Shown piece by piece: positions 839 through 63,273 of a stretch of 64,000 nt of DNA (position 1 is its first letter; every line of letters starts with the position of its first letter). The position numbers and the translations under genes are program-made. Origin of the DNA: Ulota crispa. Taxonomy: Eukaryota > Streptophyta > Bryopsida > Orthotrichales > Orthotrichaceae. Below the pieces are notes generated by a model that was not told the origin of the DNA, did no database searches, and saw nothing but the letters and a program-made list of their open reading frames with translations. Where the stretch lies: contig OY987242.1 in the NCBI GenBank assembly GCA_963920765.1, positions 35,984,002 through 36,048,001 of the forward strand, given 5' to 3'.

Positions 839-1757
839 TTAAACCTTAAAGGACCAAGCAAAGTTTTCACCAAAAACTCTTCAAAACTGCCATTTTTAGA
901 GCATTACCCAAATTTAAAAACGAAAATATTTTTATGCTTATGTGACCATAGGATCTTGTAGAAGAATAGTCTTAGAAGATGTAGAAAAAATTTCAAAGTT
1001 TTCCACCACGTGGATTGGAAGTTAGAATGGTTTGAATATTCAAAAACGTCTTGTGAAAAATTGGGCAGTTACCCTTCAAAAGGTGAAATTCTTAAGTAAA
1101 AAAGGCCATGTGGGTGGTGCTTCTCTAAATTCCTTATCCCACCTAAGTGAAGTATATGTCAAAAAAATTTCAAATCATTTGGAGTTGTGTAATATATGGA
1201 AAAAATTAGTATGTAAAAAGAAGTAGAGAATGATCCAAAACACTAAATTGTTAAGAATATAATAATGGAAATGAAAAATGCCAATCCCAATGGTCATAAT
1301 GTTGTCATAAACAGTCTTCATCTTTTTGTTTTGTTTTTTTCCCAAAATGTTGAAAATTGAGTAAAATAAAGGACTTCAAAGTTTAATTTGGAGTAGAGAA
1401 TCCATAACTGCCTGCAAACAAAAAATCCTCATAACTTTCATCTCGTTGATCCAAATGGAATGGTTCAAGGCTCCCTACATTCACATAAATCTCCTAAAAC
1501 CATTTAAAAACTTTGTTTTCAAAAAAAGTAATTATTAAAAATTTGCCCAGGCTGCCCGATGAACGTAAAAACAACATATTAGGCCATAACTTTTTACTCA
1601 TAACTCCAAATGCCATGAAATTTAGTGCGTATGAAAGATAAACTCGTCCCCACATTTTGTTAAAATTTCAGCCTAAAATATGAAAAGCTCCAATCACAGG
1701 TACCTGCCCAAAATCACTATGTTTCTAAAAAAGGGAGTCTGGTCCTTTAGGGGTTAA
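839..1757 (-). mobile_element. P1: TTAA-flanked inverted-repeat element, subtype a
   Basis: TTAA stands at both borders (839-842 and 1754-1757). The ends read inward ACCTTAAAGGACCA (left, slightly decayed) and CCCCTAAAGGACCA (right). Its interior matches P2 and P14 in the opposite orientation to P2. A 64-codon open frame at 1032-1226 is a by-product of the repeat; similar frames lie in P2 and P14 but none resembles a transposase. Confidence 0.75.
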
Positions 1758-2846
1758 CTAGAGACTCTTCAATATATGAACTAAGTTAGAAACAAAAGAA
1801 GAAACCTGCCATCTTCTTCCACTGTAGCCATAATTGTCACATTGGAGCGTCCGTCAGTCCACTTGCCCATATGCCCAAAGTGCCCAATTGAGCTCATGGT
1901 CAGTGAGCTGCATTTAATTTCTTGGCAAAATTTCACCTAAATCTTACCTTAAATGTCATCTAGCAACCAGTATACTAAGAAATTCCAGTAAAATTTTGGA
2001 TGAAATTGCCAAATCTGTACTTGAACAAAACCTAGTTTGCTAGATTTTGGATGAAAGCAACTTATGCTTATATTAGTAGTTTTTTGGATGAACTTTTGTT
2101 GATCATTCATTTTTCCAATTTTAGCTAAATTTTCCTTACCTACCCTGCATTCTGAGGTGTAGGTCGCTCTACCTTGGCAAAAACAAAAATTAAACCTTGT
2201 TTGTCAGCTATAATCAATTCATAGTTAACTTCAAAAAATGATAAAAAATGACAAATAAAACACTTACTTTGTAGTTTGTACATGTTGGTGACACTCATTG
2301 TTGCTAGCATGAAATCAAAACATGGATTTAAAGCCATACTAAGTACTAAAAATGAAATATAGTAATTTGATTCTTCCTATTTTAGGTCAAAAGCCCTAAA
2401 AAAGCCCTAAAAACATGAGGTGATGAACACGTGTGTAGGTGACGTCCGTTTCATGCCTCTGCCTGTGCTATCCAGAGCCAAATCTTGCCCAAAGTAACAA
2501 CCTTGATTTTAGCTCAGACATCGATCAGCCATCGATCTGATCAGGACCTCGTCAATATAACTTCTCAGCTCCCTCGACCAAGCAACACCAAGAAACAACA
2601 AAGACTTAAGTTTCTCGTCGACAACAATAAGCCAAGCCTACAAACTACATCGTAAGGAAAGATTGTCCTGAGGGACAGAAAACTTAAGATGCAAACAGTA
2701 AGGGAGATGCATGCATGCACACAAGAGTGCCAGAGCAGGAGATGCTCAGAAAGGCATTTTCTGTTTGTGTTTATTTGACGTAACACTAGGATATGCCTGG
2801 AATCATGGATTCTGTAGACATTCGAAGTTTCTTTATGAGTTTCTCG
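1758..2846. other. AT-rich intergenic sequence
   Basis: No gene or complete repeat was recognised. The part after about 2400 is less AT-rich and low-copy in this window. Its open frame on the minus strand (2565-2852) resembles no known family. Confidence 0.4.
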
Positions 2847-3331
2847 GTTCAACTTACTAGTGACAAGCCAAAGCTTGGAATGAGCTACTGAATGAGAAAT
2901 AGAACAGCTGGAATCTAGTTGATTTAGATGTCACCTAATTCATTAAATTGGGAAAATCAGATTTCCAAGTTGTATCCTAATGCTCGATTTAAATTGGTCA
3001 CCTTAAACCCAAAATGTTACAAAATTCCCAATTTAATAAATATGACGTTGTAGATAGTAGATGAAAGAATTGCTTCTTGTTTACAGTGGTGGTGGTGGCG
3101 GCAACATCCATTTGGGTGTGGCAGATTTCTGCAGATCTCTTGTGTCCCTGTTCGACTTACTAGTGACAAGCCAAAGCTTGGAATGAACTACCGAATGAGA
3201 AACGGAACAGCTGGAACTTTAGTTGATTGCGGTGGACAGTAGATGAGAGAATTGTTTCCTGTCTACAGCGGTGGTGGTGGCGGTAACATCCGTTTGGGGT
3301 GGCAAATTTATGCAGATCTCTTGTGGCCACG
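2847..3331. repeat. Tandem duplication of about 185 bp, first copy interrupted by D3
   Basis: Copy 1 runs 2847-3149 and copy 2 runs 3150-3331. Both begin with the word ACTTACTAGTGACAAGCC and end near TGCAGATCTCTTGTG. Copy 1 is longer by about 115 bp because it contains miniature element D3 at 2934-3048. A GGTGGTGGTGGCGG tract lies in each copy. Confidence 0.75.
2934..3048. mobile_element. D3: short family D element
   Basis: About 115 bp with inverted ends sharing TTAAATTGGGAA. It closely matches D4 in intron 3 of the trihelix gene, including the inner word CCAAAATGTTACAAAATT. The uninterrupted duplicate at 3150-3331 shows the site before insertion. Confidence 0.7.
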
Positions 3332-3472
3332 GCGAATTGCAGGATGGACGGGAGGTCGGTGGCCATGGCCATGGCGGGGGGAGGGGGCGTGGTAGCGGCA
3401 GTGGGGGCAGGCTGGGGGTGGCAACTCCCAGAGTTGTAGAAGCGCAGGAAATTCCTCCATGTTTTCTATACT

Positions 3473-3640
3473 AAATATTGCATTTAGGGTGCCTCACACT
3501 AATTTCCTGATATTTTAGACTACATAAATACTACTACAATGATTTTCATCAATAAATATTGCTATTAGGTTGCCTCATACTAATTTCCTGATATTTTACA
3601 CTATATAAATACTATTATTAATAAATATTGCAATAAGGGC
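3473..3640. repeat. B1: two tandem left-end copies of family B
   Basis: The phrase AAATATTGC followed by TTAGG(T/G)TGCCTCA and CTAATTTCCTGATATTTTA occurs twice in a row. It matches the left ends of B3 and B4; no right end was found. Confidence 0.55.
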
Positions 3641-4210
3641 TTGGTAACATGGTTGTTACTTTGGGCAAGATTTGGTGTCGGATGACTCATGCAAATGCAC
3701 AAAATGGACAGCACGGATAGACATATTTGTTCATTCTCACTTTCTTCATTGGTTTTTTAGAATTTTTGACCTAAAATGGAAGAAGAATTAAACAAGTAAA
3801 TTCATTTTTATTACGTGACACGGCTTTAAATCCACGTATTGATTACATGTTGACGACAATGAGCATCACTAGTATGTATGAAGTAAGTTTTTTTCTATCA
3901 TGTTTATCATTTTTTATCACTTGAGTATGACATGAATATATTGGACTGACCATGAGTTTAATTAGGCACTTTGGACACTTTGGAGTTTGGGCATAATTAT
4001 GGGTATACAAGCAAGCAGATCAAGCGGATGGACGGGCAGTCTAAGGTGACAACTATGAATACAACATTAAAATGCATCAAACACAAAATTGTGATAGTGA
4101 GTGTACATGAAAACATCGTGTATCATGTGGAATCATCATAAGCCTCACAAAGGATATTCACAATTTGCTACACAGAAATTGAAAGTTTGTTATGATGTGT
4201 TTATAAAATA
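3641..4210. other. AT-rich intergenic sequence
   Basis: No gene or paired element end was recognised in this stretch. Confidence 0.4.
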
Positions 4211-4523
4211 GAGAAAATCTCATGAATAACCCTGAAGATTGCAATATTTTCATGGATACAGTTGCTTTTTCAGAAATTTCACAAACACTCTTAGACCAAA
4301 AAAAATTAGGAGTTTGTTTTGTGGTGCATGTCACTTCCTTCTTCTTTATGTGCACACTATTTTTTTCTTGTTATGTGTGTGCACAAATGAAGAAGGGAAG
4401 TGGCATGCACAACAAAACAAATACCTATAATTTTTGGTCCAAGGGTATTTGTGAAATTTCTGGAAAACCAAGGGATATCTATGAAAATATGGCAAACTTC
4501 AAGGGTATCCATGAAATTTTCCC
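4211..4523. mobile_element. S1: 313-bp palindromic element flanked by TA
   Basis: The element is one long imperfect hairpin with arms of about 150 bp; the outermost part reads GAGAAAATCTCATG on the left and, inverted, GGGAAAATTTCATG on the right, each next to TA. The hairpin explains why similar open frames appear on both strands here (4222-4593 plus, 4158-4355 and 4357-4581 minus); none is credible as a gene. Confidence 0.7.
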
Positions 4524-4682: not shown

Positions 4683-5626
4683 TTAACCCCTAAAGGCTCG
4701 TTGTCCCTTCAGGGACCGTTTGGGATTTGGTCATGTACCTATGGCTAAACTACTTTATGTAATTTTCTGAAACTTTTATGGGAGATGGGGAATTCAAAGA
4801 TCTACGTGGGCATCCAATTTTTTCTTCATTCCGACATTTATTGAAGAAGTTATGCATGTTTTTCTGAAATTTTGGAGAAGGCTGCCCATCTGGGCAGCCC
4901 AAATACTTCTTTAAAAATTATATAATTTTAAACTAAAATTTTGAAACTGGTTCTTTAGATTTTTTCATACATGAGAAGCTTTGAATCATTCAATTTCAAT
5001 CAATGACAAGAAAGTTATAAGGAGTTTTTGTTTGCGGGTAGCTATGGATTTTGTACTCTAAAATAAACTTTGAAGTCCTTTATTTTACTCAATTTCATTA
5101 TTTTGGAAAAAAAACTAAACCCGAGGAAGTAGATTGTTTAATACAACATAATCACCGTTGGGATTTGCATTTTTCATTTCAATAATTAGATTCTTAACAA
5201 ATTAATGTTTTGACCCATTCTCTACTTCTTTTTACTTATTGATTTTTCCCATGTGCTGTATAGTTCCAACTGATTTGAAAATTCTCCCACACATACTTGA
5301 CTTGGTCTTCTACATGAAAAAAAAAACCTCAACTTTGTGTAGAGCAATTTTTTTGATATAGAAGTGGTCAACAGTTTCTGAAATTTTTGGGCAATACAAA
5401 AAAAAACTTTTTCCTTCGCTTCACATGTAAATATCTCACTCCTTTTCATTTGGAATAAGCTCAATTTTTATTCCCAAGTACCTCATACTATCTAGAGCAA
5501 GATCTTACAGTTGGATTTCAAAAAAAAAACAAAAAAAAAACAAAAAAAAACAATTCCTTTCATCCCCAAAAGTGGCAATTTTCATTGTTTTTCACAGAAA
5601 AAATGGCCTGGGCCTTTAGGGGTTAA
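4683..5626 (+). mobile_element. P2: TTAA-flanked inverted-repeat element, subtype a
   Basis: TTAA occurs at 4683-4686 and 5623-5626. Ends read inward CCCCTAAAGGCTCGTTG and CCCCTAAAGGCCCAGG. Just inside the left end is a small palindrome (GTCCCTTCAGGGAC). The interior matches P14 and, inverted, P1. There is no transposase frame. Confidence 0.8.
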
Positions 5627-6361
5627 CCACACTTACTGGAGCAGTGGAGTTACTACAAATAGAATGAGTCAATTGTACAGTTTTACTATTGCTCGTTTGT
5701 GGACGAAATGGCGACACAAGCACATGCCCCCCCGGGAGGAACCATCCCTGGAGGGGCAGGCTGGTGGCATGCGGCTGCAGCAGCAATGCAGCAAAGCCAC
5801 CCTTGCCACATAAAAGCTGCATTTCCATGATTCATGTGGTGCACTGGTGGTGGCGCTGGTGGGGGCGTGCGTGCACCCTTGCACCCTTGACATGCATCCA
5901 TTGACTCGGCCAAAAGCCTACTCCGGCTATTGTCAAATGGCTTGTAAATCTCGCTCTCCCTCGGCAATGCTACATAATCCAAAATATTGAAGTTTCACCT
6001 CACATACGGAACTCTATATATATGTATGTACATATGAGCCTGAGCACTGTACGTGCCGACACTGATCTCAGATTGGCATTATTCAGTACTGCCTAACTAC
6101 TACAGAATCCAGCTCTCATCAAGGACTTCTGAAATCTCAGCTTTATGTACAAAGTCCACCAGAGTTATACTTTGTCACATCTTCCCCTAGCCTGGACCAT
6201 AGAATTCTGTCAACCTGCTCGATATCTCAGGAAGGTCTTTAGCTTTTTTTTGGGTGCAAGTTAAGTACCAAAACCAGGGTCTTAAAAACCTTCGGTGCAC
6301 CAATCCTGTTTGGTATCCTGGCTAGGAGCTTCATTTTTGATCGATCTAAGCAACAGATCCC
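5627..6361 (+). promoter_or_regulatory. Upstream region of the trihelix gene
   Basis: This non-repetitive stretch separates element P2 from the trihelix start codon. A TATA-like run lies at 6015-6022, which would put transcription start near 6045 and give a 5' leader of about 310 nt. The promoter call is inference from position and base composition. Several overlapping open frames here, on both strands at 5616-5982, look random. Confidence 0.35.
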
Positions 6362-9300
6362 ATGTCTGATCCACATCAGCAAACCTCGACGTCGTTAAGC
6401 TTCCTACTGGAGTCGTTACTTGACGACGTGGACGTCGACGAACGATGTTACGATTCTTCGTCGGCGTTCCAAAATCTGAGCTCCGAGTCTACAGGACTTG
6501 ATACGACATGGACGGAGAACTGCTTGGACGACGTCGACGTCGTCGTCGAGTCCGACGTATCTGAGCTGCTGTCCGTCCAAAAGAAGAGGAAACATTCGTC
6601 GTTGTCGTCGTCTTCGTCTGAGGAGGAGTTCGAAGCATCACCATCGCCATCGCCATCACCATCGCCAGGGGATGTTCGGTCGATGTCGATGAAAGAGCAG
6701 AAGCCGAGGCAACGAGGGAAGAATTGGGAGAAGGTGGAGGAAGATATGCTGGTGGAGTGCAAAAGCCTGCTGATGGATTGGAAGGCCGTGTCGGAGCGGT
6801 TGCAGGAGCATGGGTTTGTGCGGAATCACAAGCACTGTGCTGACAAGTGGTATGCGCTTCGGAAACACTATCTAGAGGTAATAGGCAATTAATCTCTTAA
6901 TATCTCTCTTTGCATCAGGCTTGAAAATGTTATTCTAGACTTCGAGTTCCTAAAAGTGGTTATGATTGTTTGAACTGCACTGAGATCATGATCAGAGAGG
7001 TCTGGACTTTGACAGGAATTTTATGAGTTGAGTACTGCTCAAGTTCGACGTGTGCCTCTGAACATGCTTACAGTCATGGCGGGCAGGTTTCTTTTCATCA
7101 GAAATCTCATGATGTACGTACGCGAGAGACGTGCATGTATAGCAGTATAGATACATTCAATGTCTTAGATGTACATCTTATGTACACCAAATTGTGCATT
7201 TAGGTTGCCTTGCCTTGACAAAGTTACCTCATGACTCACCCATGGTCACTTGGAGGGGCACCAAGTGATGCAACGCTCTTTATGCTAAAATAATTTAATC
7301 ATTCCTATTTTTAGATAAAGTCTAGCTTCCTTGTTTCTTAGCTATGACTTTTATTGTTGCGCCCAATCTTTGCTTGCTTCCTCCATGGGTTATAATAGTA
7401 ATTGTTGACAAAAGTTAATGTAATCTTGATAAATATTTAAATAGTGTGAAATGTCAAGAAATGAGTATGGGGTAACCGAAATGCACTATTTGGTATTTTG
7501 GTCTACATCATGAGAATCCGTCTAATATGACAATATGACAAGAGAGCTAGTTGCTACAAGTGGTTGTGATTATTTAAGCTGAACTGAGATCGGAGAGGTC
7601 TGGAGTCTGGACTTTGACAGGAATTTTTTTAGTTGAGTGTTGCTCAGGACGTTTGTGTGCCTCAGAACATGGTTACAGTCATGTTCGGCAGGTTTCTTTT
7701 CATCAGAAGTCTCATGATGTATGTACACGAGAGACGTGCATAAATACATACGTCATTCAAATTTAATGTCTTAGATGTACGTCTCGTATACATCATGTAA
7801 AGTTTGATGAATAGAAATCCGTCCAATATGTCAACGGGTGAGCCAAGACTCTACCATGTCAAGTGTTTAGTGCTAGTTAGATGCCTTTGTAAGAGCTTTT
7901 ATCATTTGCTTACAACCTTTTCTGCATACATTAGTATATTCACTGAGTCCTACCAGAGCATTCGAGACTGGGATGATTACGTCAAGCACAATATAAGCGT
8001 GGGTCGATCTGGCAAATCAGATAGACAGTATGCATGCAGATGAGTGCGTGGGAAGATAAAAGAAAACAGCCAAAAATCAGCCAAACGAAATAATATAAAA
8101 AATAACGATTGAAATTTGAATTAACCGAGTACAAACCCGTTAGATTTTTTGGGAACCAAGTGAATAGACAATATCCGATACATGCACTAAATAAACCTGT
8201 TGAAAATGAGAAGTGTAGGACTTTTACCGAGGAAACTCAAAATCTCCCCGGACAGTGGTCTAAGATGTCTTCACCATTCAAGACTCTTTTGTATTTACGA
8301 AGAGTGAAAACATTTACAAAAGAACCATTACTAACAGTATAATTTGCTCAGTCAAATGCCTACAGAAACTCTAATGCATTAAATTTAACAAATGCTTAGA
8401 GAAAACTTTTTAGAGAAAAAGGCAGCTTCTAACCACAACTCTGTCTCAGTGGATACTTAGCAATTTATTGGAAAGTTTTGCAGGTTCACCAGTGGATGGC
8501 GGACCATCCAGGTGTGCAATACTGGGATCGAAGTAACTGCAATGCTGAGAGAATCAGATCGGTGCCGTCTTCCTTTTGCCAAAAATGGTACCAAGTTTTT
8601 GACTTAGCAGAGCACCGGGAGGGCAGAAAGTTGACAAAGCTGCAGGTCAGTGAAGTTTGTTATAGAACTTTTTGAAAGTAGCCCAAACAAACGAACTTAA
8701 TCTCTCTAGCCCGAGAGATTGATTTAAAATTTCATTTCAATCTATCACAAGTCAGTGTTTTACAGCCTTGCTTCATAGAGGAATCCCTTGTTGGAGTCAA
8801 GTTTTGTAACGGCAAATTAATTCAATTAACCCCATTGATACGATTTTGCTAGCTCAAATGCAAGTCAGGCCCAACATACCTAGTTGTTCCTATATATCCA
8901 TATTCATGCTTGTGTAAAGAAGCAGAGAGAGACATTTGGGTGCATGTCTAGAGAAACATAGAGAGACGTTCGGGCAAATGTACACACCATAACTGTACAC
9001 ACCATAACTAGATGGGTTGTAATTTGTAAAAGATATCATTGAGTTTTCTGTATTATGTAATGTATCTTGCTTTTATGGTTAGGTAACAAGTTTACACTCT
9101 TGTAAATGTTGCTTGAATTAAGTCCTTTGCGTTTTCAGTTGTCCTTATACTTGTGAACATAACAACAAAAATTGTGTAATGATGTCACATTGCAAAAAGT
9201 CACTCTTACTAGTAGAAAGAACACGTGACAATATTTTCTTGAAACAATGTTTACACAAGTTAGGACCTCACGCATGGGCAGTCTCACGTTTGCACCAGTA

Positions 9301-12504: not shown

Positions 12505-12872
12505 GGGAATTGATATATGTACCAACCCTTTTTTACTATTCTACCACACCTACTATATATGACCAATATTTACAATATTAAAGTAGGTGTGGACGGGCAA
12601 GACATCACTAATTTGAATATACAACTTGATATAGAAGTTGCAACTTTACTTTTTTTTTGAATTATGGATTTCACTCATATTATCAATTAAAAAATCTAAA
12701 TTATGCTTAGATTAATTTAGATTTTCTTAAATTGATACTATAATGGAGGTCAAGAGCTAATAAAAAAAACTAAAGTTGCAACTTCTATAACAAGCTGTAT
12801 TTTCAAATTAGCAATGTTTTGTTTCTGGTCCACACCTACTTTAATATTGCAAATATTGGCCATATATAGTAG

Positions 12873-13615: not shown

Positions 13616-13665
13616 TAGATGAGGTAGAGTAGTTTAAAAGGGGTGGTACACATATCAATTCCCTA

Positions 13666-14050
13666 CACTTTATCATGTATTCCACTTGATGATGGATCAA
13701 TTGACTATTTAAGGAACACATTTGAAGAGATTGGGAGACAACAATTTTGAAGGTTCTTAAAATAAATGTAAACTACATCTTGCAGATGTTATTAGCTCTA
13801 TTTAGCACAAATGAATAGTACTTTTGGTACTTGTTGTTCACAATACTTGCAAAGTTAAAGCCACAAGCATTAGTTAATCCATCATCCTCACCAATTTTAC
13901 ACAATACTATGGTTAGTACTATCAAATCTTTGTTTTTCTTGATTTTGGGTTTTTAAATTTTTAGCAAAGAGTTATTTATGTGGTCATAGTTTACGACAAT
14001 TTCTACTTATTAAAATCAACTCTATTTACTACCACCAACATTATCAACTA
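13666..14050. other. AT-rich spacer
   Basis: No gene or paired element end was seen between E1 and B3. Confidence 0.4.
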
Positions 14051-14353
14051 TACTAAATATTGTGTTTAGGTTGCCCCACACTAATTTCTTGAAATTTCAC
14101 ACTATATAAATATATGTTGCTACTACAATAGTTTTCATGAGAAATTTCTACAACAAACAATTTTTAAAAGGCCAGCTAGCAACAATGAAGCTCCAAAAAA
14201 AACAAACAAGCTACTCCTAAGCCATAAATCATGTGAAATCTAAATATTTAGAGATTTGCATGTGCCTTTGAGTGATCAAGTGATGAGTCATGAGGTAATT
14301 TACCAGGGTAAGACAACCTAATTGTCAAGGCAACCTAAATGCAATATTTAGTG
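14051..14353. mobile_element. B3: family B miniature element, both ends intact
   Basis: Ends read inward TACTAAATATTGTGTTTAGG and CACTAAATATTGCATTTAGG, with TA outside each. The next bases (TTGCC) also match. At 303 bp this is the best-preserved family B copy. Confidence 0.75.
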
Positions 14354-14851: not shown

Positions 14852-15208
14852 TTAACTCCTAAACGTCCAGAAGGACGTTTTTTGTCCTTTGCCTCTGAAA
14901 AAACATTCTGTATAGTAGAAGAAAGCAGATTTTCATCTGATTTTTTCCCAGAAGTGATCATAAACACATGCTCCATCATGGAAGGTAAAAAATAACTTCA
15001 TCAAATACACTCATGTTTTTAAACAATTCAAATTGTGAGAAGATCCTACTGCCCTTTCTACATTTTTTGTGAGGTCAATTAGGACTATTCACTTTTGTAG
15101 TTAGTTGGGCACTTGTTACACCAATCATAGTTTTGGAATCCTTGAAAAACAATGTAGATGTCATTGTAGCGGGTTGGCCACGGGAATGAGCCCGAAGTTT
15201 AAGGGTTA
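14852..15208. mobile_element. P3: short TTAA-flanked element
   Basis: TTAA flanks the ends CTCCTAAACGTCCAG and, inverted, CCCTTAAACTTCGGG. Two further TTAACCCC words follow at 15212 and 15290 but could not be paired. Confidence 0.5.
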
Positions 15209-15402
15209 AGCTTAACCCCTCCACACCTAAGTGGACAAAATTCATCCCAATTCCAGTGTATTTTGAGAATTGTTGGCAATGAGCGGTTAACCCCTGAACA
15301 TATGAGCGTGCCACTTCGACTGGTACAATACAAGGTCTTTTTTTGTATTTGGAACAGATTCACACCTTTAATACATTTGAGATCAACAAAGGAGTTGGAG
15401 AT

Positions 15403-15824: not shown

Positions 15825-16213
15825 TTAACCCTTAAATGACTGGATGATCACCATGACCAAAAGTGGATGGTTGTAAACAATGGGTTTTTGTAAACACGGA
15901 AACTACTTGTGGCAAAGTGCCCACATAATTTACTATTGTTGCCAAAAGTTGCACAAGGTAACATTGAAAGCTACCCTCATGGAAATTGCAAGAAAGACAG
16001 CATAATGCCTAACATTGTTTTTATGAATCTTCTTACAATTTGGGGTACCTAAAAATATGACTTGCATTCAACAAGGCTAATTTTTGCCTTGCATGTTGTA
16101 CCACATCTCTACAATAAATTTTTTAATGGATGAAAGTTGAATTTTGTACATCCAATAGATTTTTTTTTTGTCATTTATTGGACAAAAAAATTGCATTGAA
16201 ATTTAAGGGTTAA
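15825..16213. mobile_element. P4: probable TTAA-flanked element
   Basis: TTAA borders ends reading CCCTTAAATGACTGG and, inverted, CCCTTAAATTTCAATG. Similarity beyond the first nine bases is weak, so the pairing is tentative. Confidence 0.4.
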
Positions 16214-17512: not shown

Positions 17513-17514
17513 TA

Positions 17515-26938: not shown

Positions 26939-26950
26939 TATATATATATA

Positions 26951-28518: not shown

Positions 28519-28918
28519 TTAACCTCTAAAGGCCCATGGGGTGCTTTCACCATAAACTGCCAAAATTTGTGTTTTCGAATATGTTGATGTGAATTTTAAT
28601 TTGAAAAATATTTTTGAAATTTCAACCGTACAAAATTGTAGTAAAATATTTTAGAAATGAGTGCAAAAAATTTCAGCCCATTTAACGACACAAATTGAAA
28701 GATTATAGCATTTGAAATTTATATATATATAAATAATTGTCCTTGCCCAAATGGATTAGTAGAATTTGAGTCTCTTTGGAGTCAAATTTCTGGTCGGCAT
28801 GAATTAAAATTTTTTTCCCACTAATATCAAAATCTTGTTGGGTACACTCATGAAAAGTTTCAAGAGCAAATTATGAATTTAGCTTACTCTACATTGCCCT
28901 GCAGTATAAGGAGGTTAA
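28519..28918. mobile_element. P6: probable TTAA-flanked element
   Basis: TTAA borders ends reading CCTCTAAAGGCCCATG and, inverted, CCTCCTTATACTGC. The right end matches poorly, so the pairing is tentative. A TATATATATA run is inside. Confidence 0.4.
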
Positions 28919-29110
28919 GTGAATTGGCAATACATTAGTCATTCTTTCATGATTTCTTGTGCATTGAGAACATCTTTTATTTGAAATTTGAAGGGTGGAG
29001 AGTTAGAGACAAACATTTGGAAAGTTTTAAAAAGAACTTAAAGAGCTTTGGATTTATATATTGAAAGATAATAGGCCCTGAAGTTAGAGGAAAACATTTT
29101 TTCTTGAAAC

Positions 29111-29170
29111 TACTTGAACATAGTTAACAAAGTTTAACTCTACTTGAACATAGTTAACAAAGTTTAACTC
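29111..29170. repeat. Perfect 2 x 30-bp tandem repeat
   Basis: The unit beginning TACTTGAACATAGTTAAC occurs twice in a row with no difference. Confidence 0.9.
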
Positions 29171-29384
29171 CCTTTAGAATGTGATGTGAGACCTCAATTT
29201 GTTTATTTATTTTAAATTGTACACCGTGTCTTTTTAGTTACATACTTGCCAAATTTCAAAAGTTGATGAGAATTTTAGCATAAGATTTTCCAAAGATGCC
29301 CAAACTGCCCGCGCTACCCAAATTCTTTTGGGTAGCATAACTTTTGAACTGAGCATCTGATTGGGGAAGACATTATACTTCTAC

Positions 29385-29541
29385 TTGCAAGTGAAAGAAA
29401 TCTTGTCCTAAACGACTGGTTCACAATGACTAAAAATGTCCTAAATGACTCAATTTTACTATAATGGAGTCATTGTATAGTCATTTAGGACATTTGCAAT
29501 TGTCATGAACTAGTCGTTTAGAACATGTTTTTCTTCTAGTG
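29385..29541. mobile_element. C2: CACTA-type hairpin element
   Basis: The right tip inverted is CACTAGAAGAAAAACATG; the left tip GTGAAAGAAATCTTG is worn. The halves are inverted copies sharing CTAAACGACT and AATGTCCTAAATGACT. The tip is nearly the same as C1. Confidence 0.6.
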
Positions 29542-31080
29542 TTGGGGGATACATATTTACATTATACACCTTGTGTAACAATTTTGAGAATATCCAATAT
29601 AAATTAACTCCATATGACCCTAATTGAGCTCTCAAGTGGTTGTTGAACGGACACTTGGGCTTTTAGGGATTAATTTATGGTCTAAAGTTGCAAAAAGTTC
29701 CTTTGGCTTTCTTCCTAATTACCTTAAGCTATCTTCTTTGCTGACATCCCATTTTAGAACTTTGTTAAAACATTTAAGCAAATATCTAAAATACACCAAA
29801 ATGGATCTTGTAAAAATTTCCAAGTTTTTTTGTTGCAACTAACTGCTATAGTATCTATTTATCACTAAAAGAAGCACAATTATTTTTCATGAAGCACTTT
29901 GATTAATATTGATATCATGTACAAAAGGTAAAGTGTTGTTTTGATAACAATTTAAAGATAGACTCTTGGGCTTAGATTACTGCTGCCTAGAAAATCTATT
30001 AGGTACATTAGTGACAATACAAGCTCTTAAGATATATATAATGACATTTGTTTATTTACAATAGTAGTGTAATGCTTAACAATGTAGACTATTCATTTCA
30101 TTATGGACTATGCAATATACCAAAAGATCTCCTAATATTTAAGCAAATCATGAAGAGATCTCTAAATGTTTAGGCAGTTCATCAAGAGGTCTCTTTGTGT
30201 TTTGCATATATCTACAATTTTTTTTTTTTTTTGTTGAATTATTAATCTTGGACTCCAAGTAATAAAAAATTGGTTAAAAACGCCATATTGATTACATTCA
30301 CGATTTTTTCATTCTCTTTTAGATATATTTATAAATACCTAAATTCCTACATACAAGAATCTACATACAATATTCAACATACAAATATATGCTTAAAAAT
30401 CCAAAATTGAAATACAAACACTTACAAAAGAAGGTTCAAAAAATGAATAACTAAACCTTTGGTGGCTCTTCTCACCTTGTATGTGCATCGAGCACCAAAC
30501 AATCATACATACAATGTTAGAACTGTGACTTTTCCCAATGACCATTTTATTCTAATTTGATTTCTAAAATTTGATTAACTTTCGTTTAGTAATATAGTGA
30601 TTTTGTTAACTACTAGACTCAAGAGTTTATTAGCTTTAGATTTCAAAACTAACACGTAAATGCAAATTCTACTAACCAAACTATAATAGTTGCAGAACAA
30701 ATACGTTTTTATGTCAATTTTTTTAAAAGAAAAATACCTAATTTTACACTTAAAAAGGGCAATTTACATTTACATTGTGATTGTATTTTGTATTAAACCG
30801 ATTTTGGCAAAAAAAATTGAAAATTTTAGTCTCTTTTGTGTTTCTTGCATTCAGAAAAAAAGAAAAACGTGTGCAACATCAAACGCAAGTTTATGTAAGC
30901 TTTTAAAATTAACCTCAAATAGGTCGTGGAAGTATACTCCCTAACTTCAAACCACCCTATATTATTAATTATTAAGGCAACGAAACAAAAAAAAACATAC
31001 ATATCTGCTTTGTGGATCATCAAAATAAGAGAGGCAAGCCCTCTCTCTTCTACTTTTGGAGGTTTATTTATCAAAAGAGT
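29542..31080. other. AT-rich intergenic sequence
   Basis: Contains a T run near 30218-30233. No gene or paired repeat was recognised. Open frames at 29624-29842 and 30690-30944 look random. Confidence 0.4.
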
Positions 31081-32013
31081 TTAACCCCTAAAGGACCAAG
31101 CCCCTTTTTTTGATGAAAGTCACAAAAAACTACCACTTTTTGGGAATGAATAAAATGTTGGGAAAAAATAAAATTTTCAAAAATCCAACCATAAAATCTT
31201 GCCCTAGACTATGGGAGGTACTTGGGGAAAAAATATCAGCTCATTCTAGATGTAGAGGAGTGAGATATTGACATCTGAAGTGAAAAATAAATTTTTTTTC
31301 ACTACTGCCCAAAAATTTCAGAAGCCTTTGACCACCTTTACAGCAAAAATATTGCTCTACACAAAGTTGAGGTTTAATTGTTCCATGTGGAAGATCAAGT
31401 TAGGTATGCATAGGAGAATTCTCAAATGAAACAGAGGTGTACAACATGCTTCAAAAAATCTTTGAATGTCCAAAAGTCATGAAATTTGCAAATACACTAG
31501 GCAAAATTGGAGGCTTTATATAAAAATAAAAAATCCAAATCACGTTAATAAAAATAGTGAAACCCAAGGATTCTTAGCCTACTACAACTTGGAGAAAAAA
31601 AGAGTCAAAAAACAAATACACAAACCGCACAAAAAATGAAAGTACCAAATTTTACAAAGGGTAGAAGGAATGGAGGGTGGAGAGTTTTCCAAGCCAAGGG
31701 CCCCTTCCACTCCACTCCCCTTTGCCCAAGTGCCCACACCTTCAGCCTATAAGGGCTTATCCTCTTTGGAGACAACAACCACTTACAAAGGCAAAGCCTT
31801 GCCCAAATTGCCCCTTTTTTTCCTAGTTTTGAAATTTTTTTGATAATTTCTTTATTGAATGTTGGAATGAAGAAAATTTGGATATTCACTTAGATCTTGG
31901 AATTCCCCACCTGCAACAAAAGTTTCAAAAAATCCCAAAAACTACTTTAGTTGTAGGTACATGCCCAAAATCCAATTGTCCCCCAAAGGGGCAGTTGGTC
32001 CCTTAGGTGTTAA
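31081..32013 (-). mobile_element. P7: TTAA-flanked element, subtype b
   Basis: Ends read inward CCCCTAAAGGACCAAGCC and (inverted right) CACCTAAGGGACCAACTG, with TTAA outside each. The part nearest the left border matches P14; the middle matches P15 and P9 instead of P1 and P2. Confidence 0.75.
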
Positions 32014-35928: not shown

Positions 35929-36850
35929 TTAACCCTTATAGGACCAACTGTCCTCGAGGATAAATGGACCTTGGGCATGTACCTATGACTAAACTAGTTT
36001 TTATTAATTTTTGAAAATTTTGAGGCTAGTGGGGAATTCAAAGATGTATGTGCATATCTAATTTTTTCTTCATTCTGACCATTATTGAAGAAGTTATGCA
36101 TGAGTTTCTGAAAAACAAGGGGAGGTGATCCAAGGAGCCCAAGAAACTTTTTTAAAAATTGCATTTAAAAATAAAATAAAATAAAATTGATTCTTTAAAT
36201 TTTTATACATGAGGAGAGCTTTGAATCATTCCATCCCAACAGATGAGTGAGAAGTTTTAGTTTGTAAGCACATATGGAACTCCCAAACCTCTATTCCTTT
36301 TGCCCCTTGTTAAATTTGGTGCTTTAGTTTTTTTTTTTAGTTTTTTTTTCCAAGTTGTAGTAGACTAAGATTCCTTAGTTTTTACCATTTGGATCAAAGT
36401 AACTCATATTTCTCAATTTTACGTAAATCCTCCAATCTTGCCTAGTGTATGCGCAAATTTCATGGCCTTACAACATTACAATATTTTACAAAATATGATC
36501 CACACCTCCACTTCATTTCAAAATTCTTCCACACATACTTAACTTGGTTTTCAACATGGAAAAAATAAACCTCAACTTTGAGAGCAACTTTTTTGATATT
36601 GGAGCAACCAAAGGCTTTTGAAATTTTTGGGCAATAGGAGAAAAAAAAATTGCACTTTGGATGTCAATATCTCTCTCATCTACATCTAGAATGAGCTGAT
36701 TTGTTTTCTAGAAGTACCTCCCATAGTCTAGGGCAAGATCCTATGGATGAATTTTCAAAAAAACTCTTTTTCCTACCTTTGTGCTAATTCTCCCAAAAGT
36801 GGCAGTTTTCAGTGATTTTCACATAAAAATGGGCGCCCTTTAGAGGTTAA
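35929..36850 (+). mobile_element. P9: TTAA-flanked element, subtype b
   Basis: Ends read inward CCCTTATAGGACCAACTG and CCTCTAAAGGGCGCCC. The left end carries the inner palindrome GTCCTCGAGGAT, followed by GGGCATGTACCTATGACT as in P2 and P15. Confidence 0.7.
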
Positions 36851-37659: not shown

Positions 37660-37819
37660 TTAACCCTTAAATGTCCCAAACGCCCTCTGTGGCCGTATGT
37701 CCACTGTATACCAATTGGGCAAAACGCGTTGTTCAGCATTGTTCAGCAGTTCAATTGTGAGGGTATTTTCAAAAAATACAGTCCCGTAGCTCATCTCCCA
37801 AGGGCCGTTTAGGGGTTAA
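37660..37819. mobile_element. P10: 160-bp TTAA-flanked element
   Basis: Ends read inward CCCTTAAATGTCCC and CCCCTAAACGGCCC. It is the smallest member, with a GTATGTCCACTG phrase similar to P5. Confidence 0.55.
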
Positions 37820-46097: not shown

Positions 46098-46099
46098 TA

Positions 46100-51818: not shown

Positions 51819-52999
51819 ACACGTTATTTGTTAACCCCTAAAGGACCATTGTCCCTATGAGGGGCAAATGGGATTTCAAGCACGTACCTACGGCCTCAAT
51901 TTTTGTCTTGTGTTTTGAACCTTTTTTTGAAGATAGGAAAATACATTAGCTTTTGAGGAATCTAAATTTTCTTCCAATCAATGCCATGGAGCAAAAATTA
52001 TGCCCAAATAAGCACAAATTTGGGGAGTCCGGGCAGCAATTTTTTTACAAAAACTTGGAATATATTTTAAAACTTTTTTCTCAAAGATTACGTTTTTGTG
52101 TACATCTAAAGCTTTGATTCATTCCATTTGGACTAGTTATGATAAACCATGGACAATCTTATTTTTTGGGCAACTCATGCATTTTCTTGAAAAAATAACT
52201 TATAAACTTCATTTTTGAATGCAAACTTAACATTTTTTCAAAAGAAATTGTTGGAGAAGGTGAACTTTTCTTTCTAGAACAACCTCACTAGTGAAAATAT
52301 TGAGTTTCAATTCCATTGTAAGGTTATTAGCAATTTAAGTTTATGTTCAATCTCATACCTTCTTCTACCTAATGTTTTTTTAAAGAATGAAAACTAAGTA
52401 TTTTTTGTTCTATTGTTTTTCCCAAGATTCCCAACTCAACTTCCCATCACAAAAAATAAAGTTCCAAATGCTGTGGTGCAAAAAATTTAGGTTAAAAGAG
52501 TTCAAAGTCAAATAAACTAGTCATGCAAGGTGCAAAAAAACTTGTTTTTTTGCACTTTAAATGCAATATCTTCCAATCTATTTGTTCAAAGTTCTTGAGT
52601 TTGTTATGACACATTTTTATACTAGTCTAGTAGAAGATCCTATGGTTAGAGATGCAAAAAGACCAATTTTTCAAACTTTTTACTCTCTGCCATAGAAGTG
52701 ACAGCTTTGAGTGTCTTTTGACAAAATAAAGGCCATGGTCCTTTAGGGGTTAAATTGGGAAAAAACTTACACATTGAGACTTTTGAATTTTTCATTTTTA
52801 AGAATTTTTAGGTGATATACAGTGAACATTATGATGATTCTTGAAGACCTTACATCAATGTCCAATGATGAAATATCTTACAAGAATGATCAAAAAACTC
52901 ACTTCAAATCACCAAAGTATTATCACAAATGCAAAATTCAATATTCCCAAAATACGTTTTGCAAAAGTGCTTTTTCCCAATTTAATGAACAATGCGTTA
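51819..52999. mobile_element. D2: family D element split by P12
   Basis: The left end ACACGTTATTTGTTAA and the continuation TTAAATTGGGAAAAAAC flank P12. The right end lies at about 52972-52999 (inverted CATTAAATTGGGAAAAAG). Removing P12 with one TTAA restores the sequence seen in D1. Confidence 0.75.
51831..52753 (+). mobile_element. P12: TTAA-flanked element inserted in D2
   Basis: Both ends read inward CCCCTAAAGGACCAT with no difference, each next to TTAA (51831-51834, 52750-52753). The left end has the inner palindrome-like GTCCCTATGAGGGGC. The host junctions GTTATTTG and ATTGGGAAAA are contiguous around one TTAA in D1. Confidence 0.85.
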
Positions 53000-53532: not shown

Positions 53533-53536
53533 TATA

Positions 53537-54342
53537 TAACACAATATTCATTAATTGGAAATAAATGTAATTTTAGAACTTTTGGGTTTTATGTTCTTGA
53601 AAGAGTATTTATTAACCCCCAAATGCGCAAGGCACCCAATTTGGTATTTACAAAACTTTGAAGATGAATAAAATCTTATTAAATAACTATGTTTAACAAA
53701 AGAAATCAATACTAATTTGTTTTTAAGTCCATTCTAAAATTAGAAATCAAATTTTGAAAATGAATGTTGATGATCAATCTACTCGCCCCATAGCAACAAA
53801 AGCACCTTGCATGGCGCTTGGTTTAACAGCCCAAGCAACCAAACTTAACATAAATGTAATTACGGGAGCCATTAGAAAAATAAATGAATTATACTCAAGA
53901 TTTTGTACAAGGGTGTCCACTGCAATCTTGAGTTTTCTAGTGTTGGAAAATCTAGAGAATGAGGCTCAAATACACTAGAATTTGGAGATAATCCCATATT
54001 AAAAATTCATTTGACATGTGAAATGAGGATTGAAAAACTTCAAGTCACTTTTGGAGTTTTCACACCCTCATGTTCAAACATTATAATCTTTCAAACTATA
54101 AGTAATATTGGTGTGTTTTCTTTTTCCGTGTAATTTCTAACATGTTTAGTTTGAATTTGTAAGGTTACAATTAAAAAAAACTTGATAAAGTCTATGAAAT
54201 GGTTGGTTAATTGTTGAGTTTCATGGAAATTCCAAGAAGCTCAAAAATGCCTTGGGCATTTAGAGGTTAAACATTCTTTCAAGAACGTAAAAACTAAAAG
54301 TCTAAAAATTGCGTTTTTTCCCAAATTAGTGAATATTGTGTT
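53537..54342. mobile_element. D7: palindromic family D element split by P13
   Basis: Ends AACACAATATTCATTAATTGG and, inverted, AACACAATATTCACTAATTTGG, with TATA outside. The arms pair with each other up to the P13 insertion (TTCTTGAAAGA on the left, TCTTTCAAGAA on the right). Confidence 0.65.
53612..54270. mobile_element. P13: TTAA-flanked element, AAATG subtype
   Basis: Ends read inward CCCCCAAATGCGCAAGGCA and CCTCTAAATGCCCAAGGCA. It sits at the centre of hairpin element D7. Confidence 0.65.
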
Positions 54343-54533
54343 ATATACTAAGATTTCACATACATGTCATATGGCGTGAACGCAGCTAATTTGTTTTTCA
54401 AAAGCATTGTTGTTGCTGCTAGGCCTTTATTGTTGTTAGTAGGTGTTTATTGCAAAAGATAAATTCGTTATAGTGTTAATAAGTATTTATTGAGTATAAA
54501 ATGTCAAGAACACAATATTTGTAATTTGGGAAA

Positions 54534-55346: not shown

Positions 55347-56296
55347 TTAACCCCTAAAGGGCCAAGCCCTTTTTTCTATGAAAGTCACCAAAAATTGCCA
55401 CTTTGGGGGGAATGAGTAGAAAAGTAGAAAATAAAGTTTTTTTTTATAGATCCAACCATAGGATCCTATTCTAGACTATGGAAGGTACTTGTGGAAAAAA
55501 AATCAGCTCATTCTAGATGTAGAGGAGTGAGAGATTCACATCTCATGTGAAAAAAAAAAAAAAAAAAAATCCTTGTTGCCCAAAAAATTCAAAAGCCTTT
55601 GACCACTCTTACATGAAAAAAATTGCTTTACACAAAGTTGAGGTTTATTTTTTCCGTGTAGAAGACCAAGTTAGGTAAGTGTAGGAGAAATTTCAAATCA
55701 ATTGGAACTATACAACACATGGGAAAAATAGTAAGTAAAAAGAAGTAGAGAATGAGTCAAAACACTATATTGTTAAGAATTTAATTATTGTAATGAAAAA
55801 TGAAAATCCCAACAGTCATAATGTTGTAATAAACAATCTACTTCTTTAGATGTAGTTTTTTTTTTTTTTTTTTTTTCCAAAATATTGAAAATTATGGAAA
55901 ATAAAGGACTTCAAAGTTTATTTTAGAGTAGAGGATCCATAACTGCCCACAAACTAAAACATCTCATAACTTTCATCTCATTGATTGAAATTACGATTCA
56001 AAGCTCCCTAGGTATAAAAAGTTCTAAAGAACCAATTTCAGATTTTTATTTTAAAAAAATACAATTTTTAAAAAAGTTTTTGGGCTATCCAGATTACCCT
56101 CCCTCCCTCAGGCATCAGAAATTCTTACATAACTTCTTTGTTAAATGTTAGAATAAAGAAAAAATTAGATACTCGCATAGGTCTTGAAATTCCCCACTTT
56201 CAATAAAAGTATCAAAAATCACAAAAACTATATTAGCTATAGGTAAATGCCCAAAATCCATTTCTCCCCAGGGATAGTTGGGCCTTTAGGGGTTAA
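55347..56296 (-). mobile_element. P14: TTAA-flanked element, subtype a
   Basis: Ends read inward CCCCTAAAGGGCCAAGCCC and CCCCTAAAGGCCCAAC. At 950 bp it matches P1 along its length and P2 in inverse. It contains an A run at 55551-55569 and a T run at 55856-55876. Confidence 0.8.
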
Positions 56297-59888: not shown

Positions 59889-60102
59889 TGAGGTAAGAGG
59901 TTCTAATTTTGATAAGGCTCTAATTTCAATTAGCTTTAGGAACATCTGACATTTGACAAGAAATATCTATTACTATCATTGATGAGTTAGGTAGGCTTAG
60001 CAATATGCTAAGCCTACCTAACTCATTAATGATAGTAATAGATATTTCTTGTCAAATGTCTGATGTTCCTAGAGCTGATCAAAATTAGAACCTCTTACCT
60101 TA
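59889..60102. mobile_element. M: long hairpin element
   Basis: Arms of about 90-105 bp pair around a centre near 60006 (TAGGCTTAGCA / TGCTAAGCCTA). Outer ends are AGGTAAGAGGTTCTAATTTT on the left and, inverted, AAGGTAAGAGGTTCTAAT. The left arm has about 17 extra bases. Confidence 0.75.
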
Positions 60103-61532
60103 ATTGGTGCAAGTTGAGATAAAAATAAGCCATCCGGTGTCCTCAAATACCACTGAACATTTCCACCTCAGCTCTACGACTCTGTACCATCGAAGGGACA
60201 TGTGGCAAGTACGAAATCTCTTGAAGTAGGGCTTCTGTGTCTGAACTCTGAAGTTTATGATTGGGAGAATGTCAGAAAGCATTGCTTTAGCTTTCCTCTT
60301 GTTCGCCGGTGTTCAGAAAGGATAGGGCAGCCTTTAAAATTGGTTTTTTCGTTGGTCGCGCAACAGGCACCCACTAGGTAAGGCAAATATGGATAGAAAT
60401 GGATAGATTCAACAAAGTGTGAACGTTCACCCATAAATCCTTCTATTATTAGTATCTTTTGTCCAAATTCTAGCAAACCTGGTATAAGCCTGAGGAGAGA
60501 TTTGGCAATTTCATTCATTTTTTCACCCAATTTTGGTAGCCAGTCACTAATTGAGGTATCCATCAAAAAAATGAGTGTAGATTACAACAACTCGATTTTA
60601 TGAAATATCGACATGCTTTTTTGGACTGTCCTAAAGTTCAAAATTTTTAATCCAAATAAAGACTTTGGAGATAAATGCAAAATATTGGAAGATTTATGTC
60701 GCCCAACTTTTGGAGACCTCTTGATATTTTGCAAACATAATGAATTGCATGAACAATCCAAGTTTAGCCAAGTATGGCATGCGTTGAGATCATTGTATTT
60801 CATGTTCATTTTAACAAAAGTAACTAGAGAATCATCAATGTTTTTATTGTAGTACATTTTTGATAGAATTTTGAATTTTTATATTCAAGTTTTCTATTAA
60901 AGTTTCCATGATTTTTTTGGTAAATGTAATCAATTAGTTCCAATCTAAAATTAAAACTTTGCAATTCATATTCATACATCAACTCTAAAATATTCCTCCA
61001 TGTCATTCTTTGTAAAGTATTTTTACAAACCTTCAACCCTGTGAACACCATATTAGATAAATTGGGAAAAAGAGTACATTCTAGGACTTTCACTATTTCT
61101 GTCATAATGTAAAATTTAGCATATTACAAAAAAAAAGCATGCAATTTCTTTTGCTATTTTGTGAGCGTAAAATGTTGAGTCATGAGTATTGAGCAGCAAG
61201 TCAAGATTCAACTTGTGAACAAGGATTGATTTTGAACTCAAAATTGATGACAAAACTAAAAAATACTGTAGATTTTTTGAGAGATAAAATTTTAAAATGC
61301 ACAAGTATAGGGCTCTATGTACACGGTTATAGGTGAAATTTAGTATTTTGACAAAAAATCTAAACTCATGGTTCACTACTCACAAATCCTAGCTCATGGT
61401 ACAACATTCTCCCATCAATACATGTTGCTTGCTATAAGTCCTATGCGTTTGCATTATCTACTTCACAATTCAAGATTGGGATTCAATCCCAAAATGAAAA
61501 CTTGTTACATATTATTTCAAAATCAAAATTGT
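60103..61532. other. AT-rich intergenic sequence
   Basis: A lone family D end lies near 61045-61085 (ATAAATTGGGAAAAAGAGTA). No gene recognised. Confidence 0.35.
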
Positions 61533-63273
61533 TTAACCCCTAAAGACCCAAATATCCCTTCAAGGGATAAAAGGATTTTGGGCATGTACCTACAACTAAG
61601 CTGGTTTATGTGATTTTTTGAAAATTTTGTTGAAGGTGGAGATTTCAAAGACCTATGAGGCATCTAATTTTTTCTTTATTCCAACATTTGATGGAGAGAT
61701 TATGCAAAAATTTCCAAAACTAGGCAAGAAGGGGTGGTTTGGGCAAGGCCTCCTCTTTGTAAGTGGATGTTGACTCCAAAGAGGGTTAGGCCTTATGGGC
61801 ACAAGGTGAGGACACTTGGGTAAGGGGGGGTGGAGTGGAAGGAGCTTGTCTTGGGGGATTCCCAAGTCCCAACCCTCCATTCCTTTTGCCCCTAGTAAAA
61901 TTTGGTACTTAAACCTTTTGAGCAGTTGAGTATTTTTTTTAACTTTTAAAATTTTCCAAGTTGTAATGCGCTAAGATTCCTTGGTTTTCACTATTTGGAT
62001 TAGTGTAATTCAAATTTTTGAATTTTACATAAATCCTCCAATTTTGCCTAGTGTATATGCAAATTTCATGACCTTCTAACATTCAAAGATTTTTTGAAGT
62101 ATATTGCACATTGCCAATTTGAAAATTTCCCCACACATACCTAACTTGGTCTCTATATGGAGCACTTAAACATCAACTTTGTGTAGAGCAATTGTTTTTG
62201 TTATAAGAGTGGTTAAAGGCTTTTGAAATTGTTGAGCAAGAAGGCGAATAACTTTTTTCTTTGCATCAGATTTCAATACCTCACTCTCTCCATCTAAAAT
62301 GAGTTGATATTTTTTCACAAGTACCTCCTATAGTCTAAGGCAAAATCTTGTGGTTGGATTTTAAAAAAAAACTTATTTTCTTACCTTTCCACTTGGGCAA
62401 TGGCACAATCAGGGTACTCAAAAAGGACTCCTTAACTTCAATTTGGCTATACCCATGATACTTTTGCTATTTATTAAGTCTTACTAGATAGTGCTTTGCT
62501 ATTAATTTTTTGGCAAGAAGTTGCTTATACTTGTAGATTAGAAGAAAAAAAATACAATTTTTCAAATGATGAATGGTATCATGTCTAAATGAGTGATTAT
62601 GTGAGAAGTTCTAAAACTATCTCATTTCATAAAAATGAAGCAAAGGACTCATCTGGACAACAAATTTGGTTAGTAGGAATTAGGTTAATACATTTATAGT
62701 TGTGCAAGCTTCTATGGTCCATGAATTTGAAGTGTATTAGTCCATACATTATTAAAACTAGTTGTTATGAATTCTTTTAGGGACACTTTCATGAGAGTTT
62801 TTCCACGTCCAATAAAGAACATTAAAAAATTGTAATTTTTTAAAAAAGTGGCAAAAGCATGCACATATACTTGTTTCTAGGTGCACATATGGTCAAAATT
62901 ATTAAAATGTTAATAATTCATTTTAGGGAGCCATTACAAATTACAAGTCAACAAAAGTCTGGATCAAGACATTTGGGTTCTAATCACTTTTATGGTGTGA
63001 AAAAAGATCAAGAAAGTCCTTTTGATGGAAGGAACACTTTCTAAATGAATGTCTTAATGTAAGGAAAGCTTAAGAAAAATGTTTCATCACTTGCAAGTTC
63101 AAACTTTTATCTAAACAAAAATAATCCAGACTCCTTAGGAAAGAGTCCTTTCCGAAGGTCTAGCAGGCCCTTTCGAGGATACCTTGATCGTACCATCACC
63201 CACTCATTTCCCTAAAAATGGGCAATTCTGAGTGACTTTTGTAGAAAAAAGGGCTTGGATATTTAAAGGTTAA
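61533..63273 (+). mobile_element. P15: TTAA-flanked element, subtype b, interrupted
   Basis: Ends read inward CCCCTAAAGACCCAAATATC and CCTTTAAATATCCAAGCCC, with TTAA outside. Inner palindrome TATCCCTTCAAGGGATA at the left end. Without the inner insertion (62395-63201) it is about 935 bp, the family length. Confidence 0.75.
62395..63201. mobile_element. V: 807-bp inverted-repeat insertion inside P15
   Basis: Ends read inward GGGCAATGGCACAATCAGGG and GGGTGATGGTACGATCAAGG, differing only by transitions. ACT stands next to each end, a possible target duplication. Comparison with P9 places the insertion between TTACCTTT and the CACTT/CCC region. No family is assigned. Confidence 0.6.

Follow-up and report, generated by a model that had tools for sequence, protein, structure and literature searches.

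TTAA-flanked miniature transposons of probable piggyBac type in a land-plant genome, and coding elements that carry the same ends

The DNA considered here, which we call the window, is a 64-kb stretch of a 275-Mb plant genome (C1:35984002-36048001). Next to a protein kinase gene and a set of fold-back repeats, it contains seven long miniature elements of ~0.92-0.95 kb, whose ends begin CCCCTAAAGG or a near variant and are bordered by TTAA. Elsewhere in the genome, on C5 and C7, the same ends enclose a DDE_Tnp_1_7 transposase domain. We therefore consider it very probable that the window elements are non-autonomous members of the piggyBac superfamily, resembling miniature inverted-repeat transposable elements (MITEs), which derive mainly by internal deletion and were amplified in trans by a piggyBac DDD transposase.

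Miniature elements of the window

The long elements, together with a palindrome in the left end of one of them, are the following.

839..1757, minus strand: P1, long piggyBac-type miniature element, 919 bp including TTAA, with TTAA at both ends
4683..5626, plus strand: P2, long element, 944 bp including TTAA, used as the query for genomic copies
4703..4716, plus strand: palindrome GTCCCTTCAGGGAC at element bp 17-30 of P2, within its left (A) end
31081..32013, minus strand: P31, long element, 933 bp
35929..36850, plus strand: P35, long element, 922 bp
51831..52753, plus strand: P51, long element, 923 bp; a full-length copy, 84% identical, is present at locus L043, which has no transposase link
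55347..56296, minus strand: P55, long element, 950 bp
61533..63273, plus strand: P61, long element, ~933 bp plus an insertion of ~808 bp (at about 62394-63201), on either side of which it aligns to P31 and P55

All seven have their left (A) and right (B) ends in common, and their bodies can be aligned. The first-pass annotation of this DNA had reported TTAA at all fourteen borders of the long members, and this is exactly what is found, none of the 56 border bases being altered. The terminal ten bases are 82-86% identical, and whole elements 48-78% identical in pairwise comparison; P1, for instance, has 78% identity to both P2 and P55 across ~390 bp. Since the TTAA borders are intact while the bodies have diverged, the insertions are probably younger than the divergence of the bodies, and the alignments suggest that several miniature-element lineages were mobile side by side. 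Some bodies are mixed, the left part of P35 resembling P2 and its right part P31.

The ends are far more frequent than composition predicts. The 14-mer TTAACCCCTAAAGG occurs in 8, 6, 9 and 10 copies at 0, 1, 2 and 3 mismatches, against means of 0, 0, 0.6 and 6.6 in 20 simulated sequences with the order-2 composition of the window, and TTAACCYYTAAA ends with at most one mismatch number 30 against 2.4 expected. When copies of CCCCTAAAGG were counted without requiring TTAA, it nonetheless stood directly before all 8 exact copies and 6 of the 7 one-mismatch copies in the window, the seventh being internal to an element; with two mismatches it preceded 9 of 44 copies, the rest of which are mostly chance occurrences. 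A likeness of the ends to CCCTAAA, the plant telomere unit, was set aside, as the TTAA borders and a transposon body account for them. Fifteen TTAA-flanked elements had originally been claimed. Twelve pairs of ends were recovered, the seven long elements and five others described below, and the remaining three ends (15287, 16943 and 35119) are weakly partnered, with best partners of only 11, 12 and 13 of 18 letters.

The longest reading frame in the long elements is 105 amino acids. In nine elements searched for coding remains, 85 stop-free stretches of at least 38 amino acids gave seven weak matches to Pfam and no transposase. Frames of at least 70 amino acids in the window number 133, and 105 of these were scanned, the 28 over 19974-26578 (the kinase gene) being excluded; they returned a Myb/SANT-like domain, a SCAMP match (1.7e-4) and fourteen weaker matches, again with no transposase. 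No tRNA was found in the window, and nothing in it reached an Rfam gathering score.

Transposase genes and shared ends

That this plant has, or had, a piggyBac-like transposase was part of the earlier proposal, and the genome bears it out. PF13843 (DDE_Tnp_1_7) gave 120 matches on C1-C11 (best E 1.3e-73, all listed ones above the cut-off) in a search in which 116 of 528 first-look candidates were scored, and it had no match in any of 14 control genomes.

The decisive test had been proposed beforehand, namely a DDE_Tnp_1_7 gene lying between the ends of the miniature family, and it succeeded in two elements, on searching with profiles made from the ends of the seven window elements. The C5 element (24506226-24515054, 8.8 kb; T17) matches the left-end profile with E 4.9e-29 and the right-end profile with E 1e-23, and its DDE domain, at 24512207-24513349, lies between the two. 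The C7 element (11814404-11822436, 8.0 kb; T3) matches with E 1.2e-10 on the left and E 2e-17 on the right, again with the DDE domain (11819342-11820496) between both ends. TTAA is present at all four borders. The membership in piggyBac claimed from the window is thus upheld by the domain enclosed in these two elements.

The relationship between the miniature and the coding elements is restricted to their outer parts. P2 is 85% identical at bp 1-176 to the left end of the C5 element and 77% identical at bp 583-944 to its right end. For the MITEs in general, similarity to this element covers the outer ~180 bp on the left and ~360-540 bp on the right and then stops, a match limited to the outermost parts of the element and hence the pattern expected of internal-deletion derivatives. 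The C5 and C7 elements are collinear with each other, with 84% identity over 55 bp at the left end, 64% in the DDE region, two further pieces on the 3' side and then 82% over 55 bp at the right end, and their similarity ends at the TTAA borders. T3 and the locus T3b are 70% alike and have the 3' part and right end in common up to the border. T3, T3b and T4 have a flanking repeat that lies beyond the element.

Fifteen coding loci were read (T1-T8, T17, T3b, T3c and L039-L042). T1, T2, T4, T5, T6, T8 and L041 have candidate paired ends of their own, TTAA with CCC-like starts, 5.0-6.0 kb apart. The pairs are clear in T4 (CCCCTAAATGCCTAA at both ends, 15 of 16 letters) and L041 (CCCCTTGAGG at both ends, 14 of 16), and weaker in T1, T2 and T6 (12 of 16), T5 (11) and T8 (10), as 12 was also reached by a pair without CC; the pair taken was the one scoring best, CC starts earning a bonus. 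One end each of T2 and T8 begins CTCCT or CCTTG. All three D motifs are present in six of the fifteen loci (T3, T4, T17, L039, L041 and L042), and L040 has N at the third. T3, with residues numbered from its alignment to the solved insect piggyBac 6x67, has D at the positions of D268, D346 and D447 of Trichoplusia ni piggyBac. A cysteine-rich C-terminal tail, identified by pattern match only, occurs in nine of the fifteen, T3 included and T17 excepted. L042 matches 6x67 with E 7.6e-20 and piggyBat 9c0f with E 2.6e-24; the corresponding values for T3 are 1.8e-17 and 1.2e-11.

Individual loci have features of their own. The gene at L039 (G000:C1:1178000-1184600), at ~2650-4341, consists of two open pieces with a probable intron between them. 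Its DDE domain has no stops, and L039 may be a piggyBac gene that the plant has domesticated. Directly downstream of the transposase gene in T3, at ~5030-5630 (L003 / L058), is a long tandem array of a short unit, translated THTYI..., and T3b and T3c have short arrays similar to it. At ten further transposase places (L070-L079), for which the 1.3-kb downstream stretch only was read, a right end CCCCTAAAGG was found in one, L077, and the others have different end starts or none. In L077 (G000:C9:12440010-12441310) the right end TTAACCCCTAAAGGATTGAGGG lies downstream of the piggyBac transposase place, making it a possible further coding relative of the MITEs.

The A end is the end upstream of the gene, and it carries a palindrome at bp 15-33. 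For insect (T. ni) piggyBac, PMC7351741 describes a dimer of the cysteine-rich domain that binds a palindrome at left-end bp 17-33. Only 7 of 2000 shuffles were as good as the palindrome of the C5 element, TTGTCCCCTCGGGGGACAA, and 13 of 2000 as good as that of the C7 element, TTGTCCCTTTGGGGACAA. Among the window elements the palindrome varies in sequence and mostly keeps its symmetry, P1 being without one. The dyad of these elements, at bp ~24, has a summed score of 37 against 19.7 +/- 2.7, which none of 2000 shuffles of the same place reached; in a scan along the elements 4 of 816 positions score as high, namely two belonging to the dyad itself, A-end bp 237 and B-end bp 30. The left-end palindromes of other coding families differ, being strong in L041, modest in T1 and T8, placed somewhat further in for T4 and T2 and slight in T5 and T6, with several families no better than their own right ends; the shuffle control covers the C5, C7 and window palindromes and not these seven families. 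By analogy with the insect element, the left-end palindrome is a putative binding site of the cysteine-rich domain.

Target sites, abundance and explanation

At TTAA targets, duplication of TA and duplication of TTAA give the same sequence. The first-pass annotation had argued that the invariant T and A beside TA exclude TA duplication, an argument that fails for this reason, and borders that deviate from TTAA were used instead. Exact CCCCTAAAGGRCCA ends number 8980 genome-wide (reversed control: 0). TTAA immediately precedes 7636 of them (85%), and T is the first base in 7636 of the 7943 NTAA ends (96%). The far side was inspected for 40 of the 100 TTAT ends; in 12 of these the short stretch retrieved contained no far end. 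The other 28 have a far end of TTAA in 15 cases, of ATAA (that is, TTAT on the other flank) in five and of another kind in eight. ATAA makes up 123 of all 8980 ends (1.4%), and five of 28 is thus about a thirteenfold excess over expectation; the end of L085, which is among these five, is poor. L017 has TTAT at both flanks. Among the ends listed (100 TTAT ends and the first 100 of the 123 ATAA ends) there are ten facing TTAT/ATAA pairs, spaced 596-1200 bp (two on C2, one on C4, two on C5, one on C6 and four on C7), against controls of 0 TTAT/TTAT and 1 ATAA/ATAA pairs; two of the ten belong to the 12 TTAT ends for which no far end had been found. Matched TTAT/TTAT copies mean that the fourth base is copied along with the other three. 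The target duplication is 4 bp, TTAA, and not TA.

Empty sites were sought by aligning the joined flanks of 37 insertions (P2 twice) to the window and the fetched loci, which gave 17 junction-spanning alignments. Paralogous empty sites have a single TTAA in three of four cases for L011 (the fourth has TGAA), three of six for L022 (the others are gapped or have TTCA) and one of three for L034; the P55 alignment is gapped and uninformative. An empty paralogue with a single TTAA is thus present at three of four informative sites, and these paralogous sites show insertion, not excision.

The tabulation of the four bases at genomic borders that had been suggested as a check also favours TTAA, both at the exact ends counted above and at full copies of P2. 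P2 gave 8433 first-look candidates as a genome query, and the 40 that were scored contained 40 near-full-length places at 86-100% identity, one of them P2 itself, and one partial place at 78%. In the 30 best places (P2 included), queried without TTAA, TTAA is present by position at 55 of 60 borders, and one of the five exceptions is an indel shift in which TTAA still precedes CCCC. These places differ by a mean of 5.0% (3.2-6.7%) from their majority sequence, a figure that is not the age of the family, as they were picked for similarity to P2. The exact 18-mer CCCCTAAAGGRCCA is matched by five of the 14 long-element ends in the window; from the density there (seven in 64 kb) and the CCCCTAAAGGRCCA counts, we estimate roughly 10,000-30,000 long copies genome-wide.

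We propose that MITEs of this family arose mainly by internal deletion of longer piggyBac elements in the same genome, and that a piggyBac DDD transposase, acting on them in trans, may have produced thousands of copies. The transposase would cut at the CCCC end, presumably by the hairpin mechanism, and the element would be excised with its flanking TTAA and joined into a TTAA, which would thereby be duplicated. The cysteine-rich domain may bind the palindrome near the left end. Several features of the superfamily are present: a TTAA target with a 4-bp duplication, a DDD catalytic triad, a cysteine-rich C-terminal domain (by pattern) and terminal inverted repeats starting CC[C/T]. The end hallmark is given as CC[C/T]T in PMC2872659, and its usual fourth base, T, is C here (CCCCT).

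Other transposons are known to leave comparable borders. TA-duplicating MITEs are common in plants, and Tc1/mariner (Stowaway-like) MITEs with ends ACCCC...GGGGT and a preference for TTAA would leave the same sequence as a TTAA duplication, so that neither the invariant TTAA nor the empty sites discriminate. Such an origin is extremely unlikely, because the matched TTAT/TTAT copies show the fourth base to be copied, which is not the 2-bp duplication of TA, because T comes first in 96% of NTAA ends, and because the same ends enclose a piggyBac transposase domain, although the genome was not searched for mariner families. Kolobok and Sola3 elements likewise duplicate TTAA, with which Sola3 is associated. 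Kolobok, with TTAA duplications like those seen here, is listed in green and red algae (PMC9587614); its termini are RR..YY and its transposase is a different one. The 30 genomic places have CCCC..GGGG ends with point variants, not RR..YY, and what these ends enclose in the coding elements is DDE_Tnp_1_7, which leaves these superfamilies with hardly any probability, although no search was made for Kolobok or Sola transposases. PIF/Harbinger (Tourist) elements, with their 3-bp TWA duplication, were rejected on the 4-bp symmetric TTAA and the matched TTAT.

It is also conceivable that the distant left ends of the C5 and C7 elements are chance neighbours, and more generally that the MITEs are of piggyBac type and that old transposase genes lie by chance between miniature copies unrelated to them. 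The family is so dense that stray ends near transposases are expected in some of the loci examined, and the left ends are unusually far from the gene. An accidental link is nevertheless very unlikely: a separate miniature copy would run ~930 bp, whereas similarity to the C5 element stops after ~180 and ~360-540 bp, collinearity of the two coding elements runs from the left end through to the right, and the right end is common to T3 and T3b up to the border.

Several observations weigh against the explanation that we favour. Both MITE ends occur in only two of the fifteen coding loci read; seven bear other candidate ends, and no end pair was found at T7, L039, L040 or L042. The DDE domain has stops in both linked copies (three in T17, two in T3), so that neither a working source nor present activity is shown. 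Their left ends lie ~6.0 kb (C5) and ~4.9 kb (C7) before the DDE domain, compared with 2.1-3.3 kb in the seven others; nested repeats partly explain these long arms, and the C7 locus includes a complete miniature element. The profile matches the C7 left end over ~54 bp, the right end is decayed in T3b (E 1.8e-8, TTAT border) and T3c (E 0.0006), and the middle parts of the MITEs are unexplained by the C5 and C7 elements. As to the target site, the 15 of 28 TTAT copies with a TTAA far end indicate that most deviating borders are simple mutations, TTAA is found in only 7 of the 17 junction-spanning alignments, and the L036 paralogues have TTAG in all three cases.

piggyBac is a workhorse gene-delivery transposon, described mostly from animals, fungi and protists. 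The elements of this genome resemble insect piggyBac (T. ni) and piggyBat in their TTAA duplication, CCC-starting ends, DDE_Tnp_1_7 domain with DDD motifs and C-terminal cysteine-rich pattern, and T. ni piggyBac also in a palindrome at left-end bp ~15-33. They differ in their land-plant host, their CCCCTAAAGG ends and the sequence of the palindrome. The coding elements are 5.0-6.0 kb with their own ends and 8.0-8.8 kb, nested insertions included, with MITE ends, compared with about 2.5 kb for a typical piggyBac (PMC10813416). The coral CMITE piggyBac/TTAA MITEs (PMC2872659) have TTAA duplications and CC[C/T]T ends and are attributed to piggyBac. In these coral elements, of ~100 bp, the middle is conserved and the ends vary, whereas the elements here are ~930 bp with conserved ends and a variable middle, and a longer coding element with both ends was found.

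Reports from plants are brief in the sections of the literature at hand. A repeat table for the fern Ceratopteris has 1230 PiggyBac copies (PMC6890710), a statement on angiosperm MITE superfamilies includes piggyBac (PMC10004981), and piggyBac in plants is stated in general terms (PMC10813416, PMC10140906, PMC10004981). In those sections, the Ceratopteris and angiosperm entries are a class label or a superfamily list, without a plant transposase, ends or target sites. Among the literature matches listed, as far as their text was available, none describes a plant piggyBac transposase with its ends, or such a family in a moss or another land plant, which is not proof of absence. The kind of element is known; the plant host and the extent of amplification are unusual. 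With >100 scored transposase places and thousands of MITE ends, the piggyBac superfamily has thrived in a land plant. Its ends and transposases are naturally paired material for work on how ends are recognised, and native piggyBac tools for seedless plants would be in prospect. It is tempting to go further, although we would put this at somewhat less than an even chance, and envisage a complete piggyBac system that diversified within a seedless land plant into several coding lineages and drives a MITE swarm that is among the most abundant of its host. Every lineage would have TTAA-CCC ends of its own and a family-specific left-end palindrome, placed where the dimer of the cysteine-rich domain binds in insects. 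If true, paired ends and tails would make the coevolution of transposase and palindrome readable, and some copies may still be mobile.

Other candidate elements, host genes and repeats

The five further pairs of ends in the window, all unstranded, are these.

14852..15209: 358 bp, ends agreeing in 13 of 18 terminal letters; a weak candidate
15825..16213: 389 bp, CCCTTAAAT at both ends, which agree in 14 of 18 terminal letters; a weak candidate
28519..29673: 1155 bp, TTAACCTCTAAAGG / TTAATCCCTAAAAG, ends agreeing in 15 of 18 terminal letters; possibly a divergent member
37660..37819: 160 bp, a short element with TTAA, whose ends CCCTTAAATG / CCCCTAAACG agree in 15 of 18 terminal letters
53612..54270: 659 bp, ends CCCCCAAATGC / CCTCTAAATGC agreeing in 15 of 18 terminal letters; possibly from another family

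Random TTAA sites reached 15 of 18 letters, as in 28519..29673, in 4 of 200 cases, 14 letters (15825..16213) in 6 of 200 and 13 letters (14852..15209) in 22 of 200, or about one in ten. The ends of 53612..54270 resemble the ends CCCCTAAATGCC of the coding element T4, and part of this element consists of a dispersed repeat also matching a flank of L011. An inverted repeat of ~100 bp (53533-53634, 54248-54347) reaches ~79 bp beyond its TTAA borders; the element was perhaps inserted into the centre of a palindromic MITE.

The hint of a flowering-plant host in the first-pass annotation is probably wrong. The dynein heavy-chain N2 domain has 41 matches in the genome, 34 of them above the cut-off, at about nine loci, and none in any of the 14 control genomes. 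To our knowledge, flowering plants are without dynein heavy chains, and their presence makes a plant with swimming sperm the more likely host; a moss would agree with the genome size. At 20509-25160 the window has a multi-exon protein kinase gene with short introns, which we take to be a CDPK-related kinase of land plants, and at 6350-6892 an open frame that matches a Myb/SANT-like DNA-binding domain (PF13837, E 4e-06). Near-palindromic (fold-back) repeats of ~180-420 bp, some of them mutually related, lie at 12550-12872, 13259-13490, 17521-17895, 18219-18639, 33803-34211 and 59915-60093.

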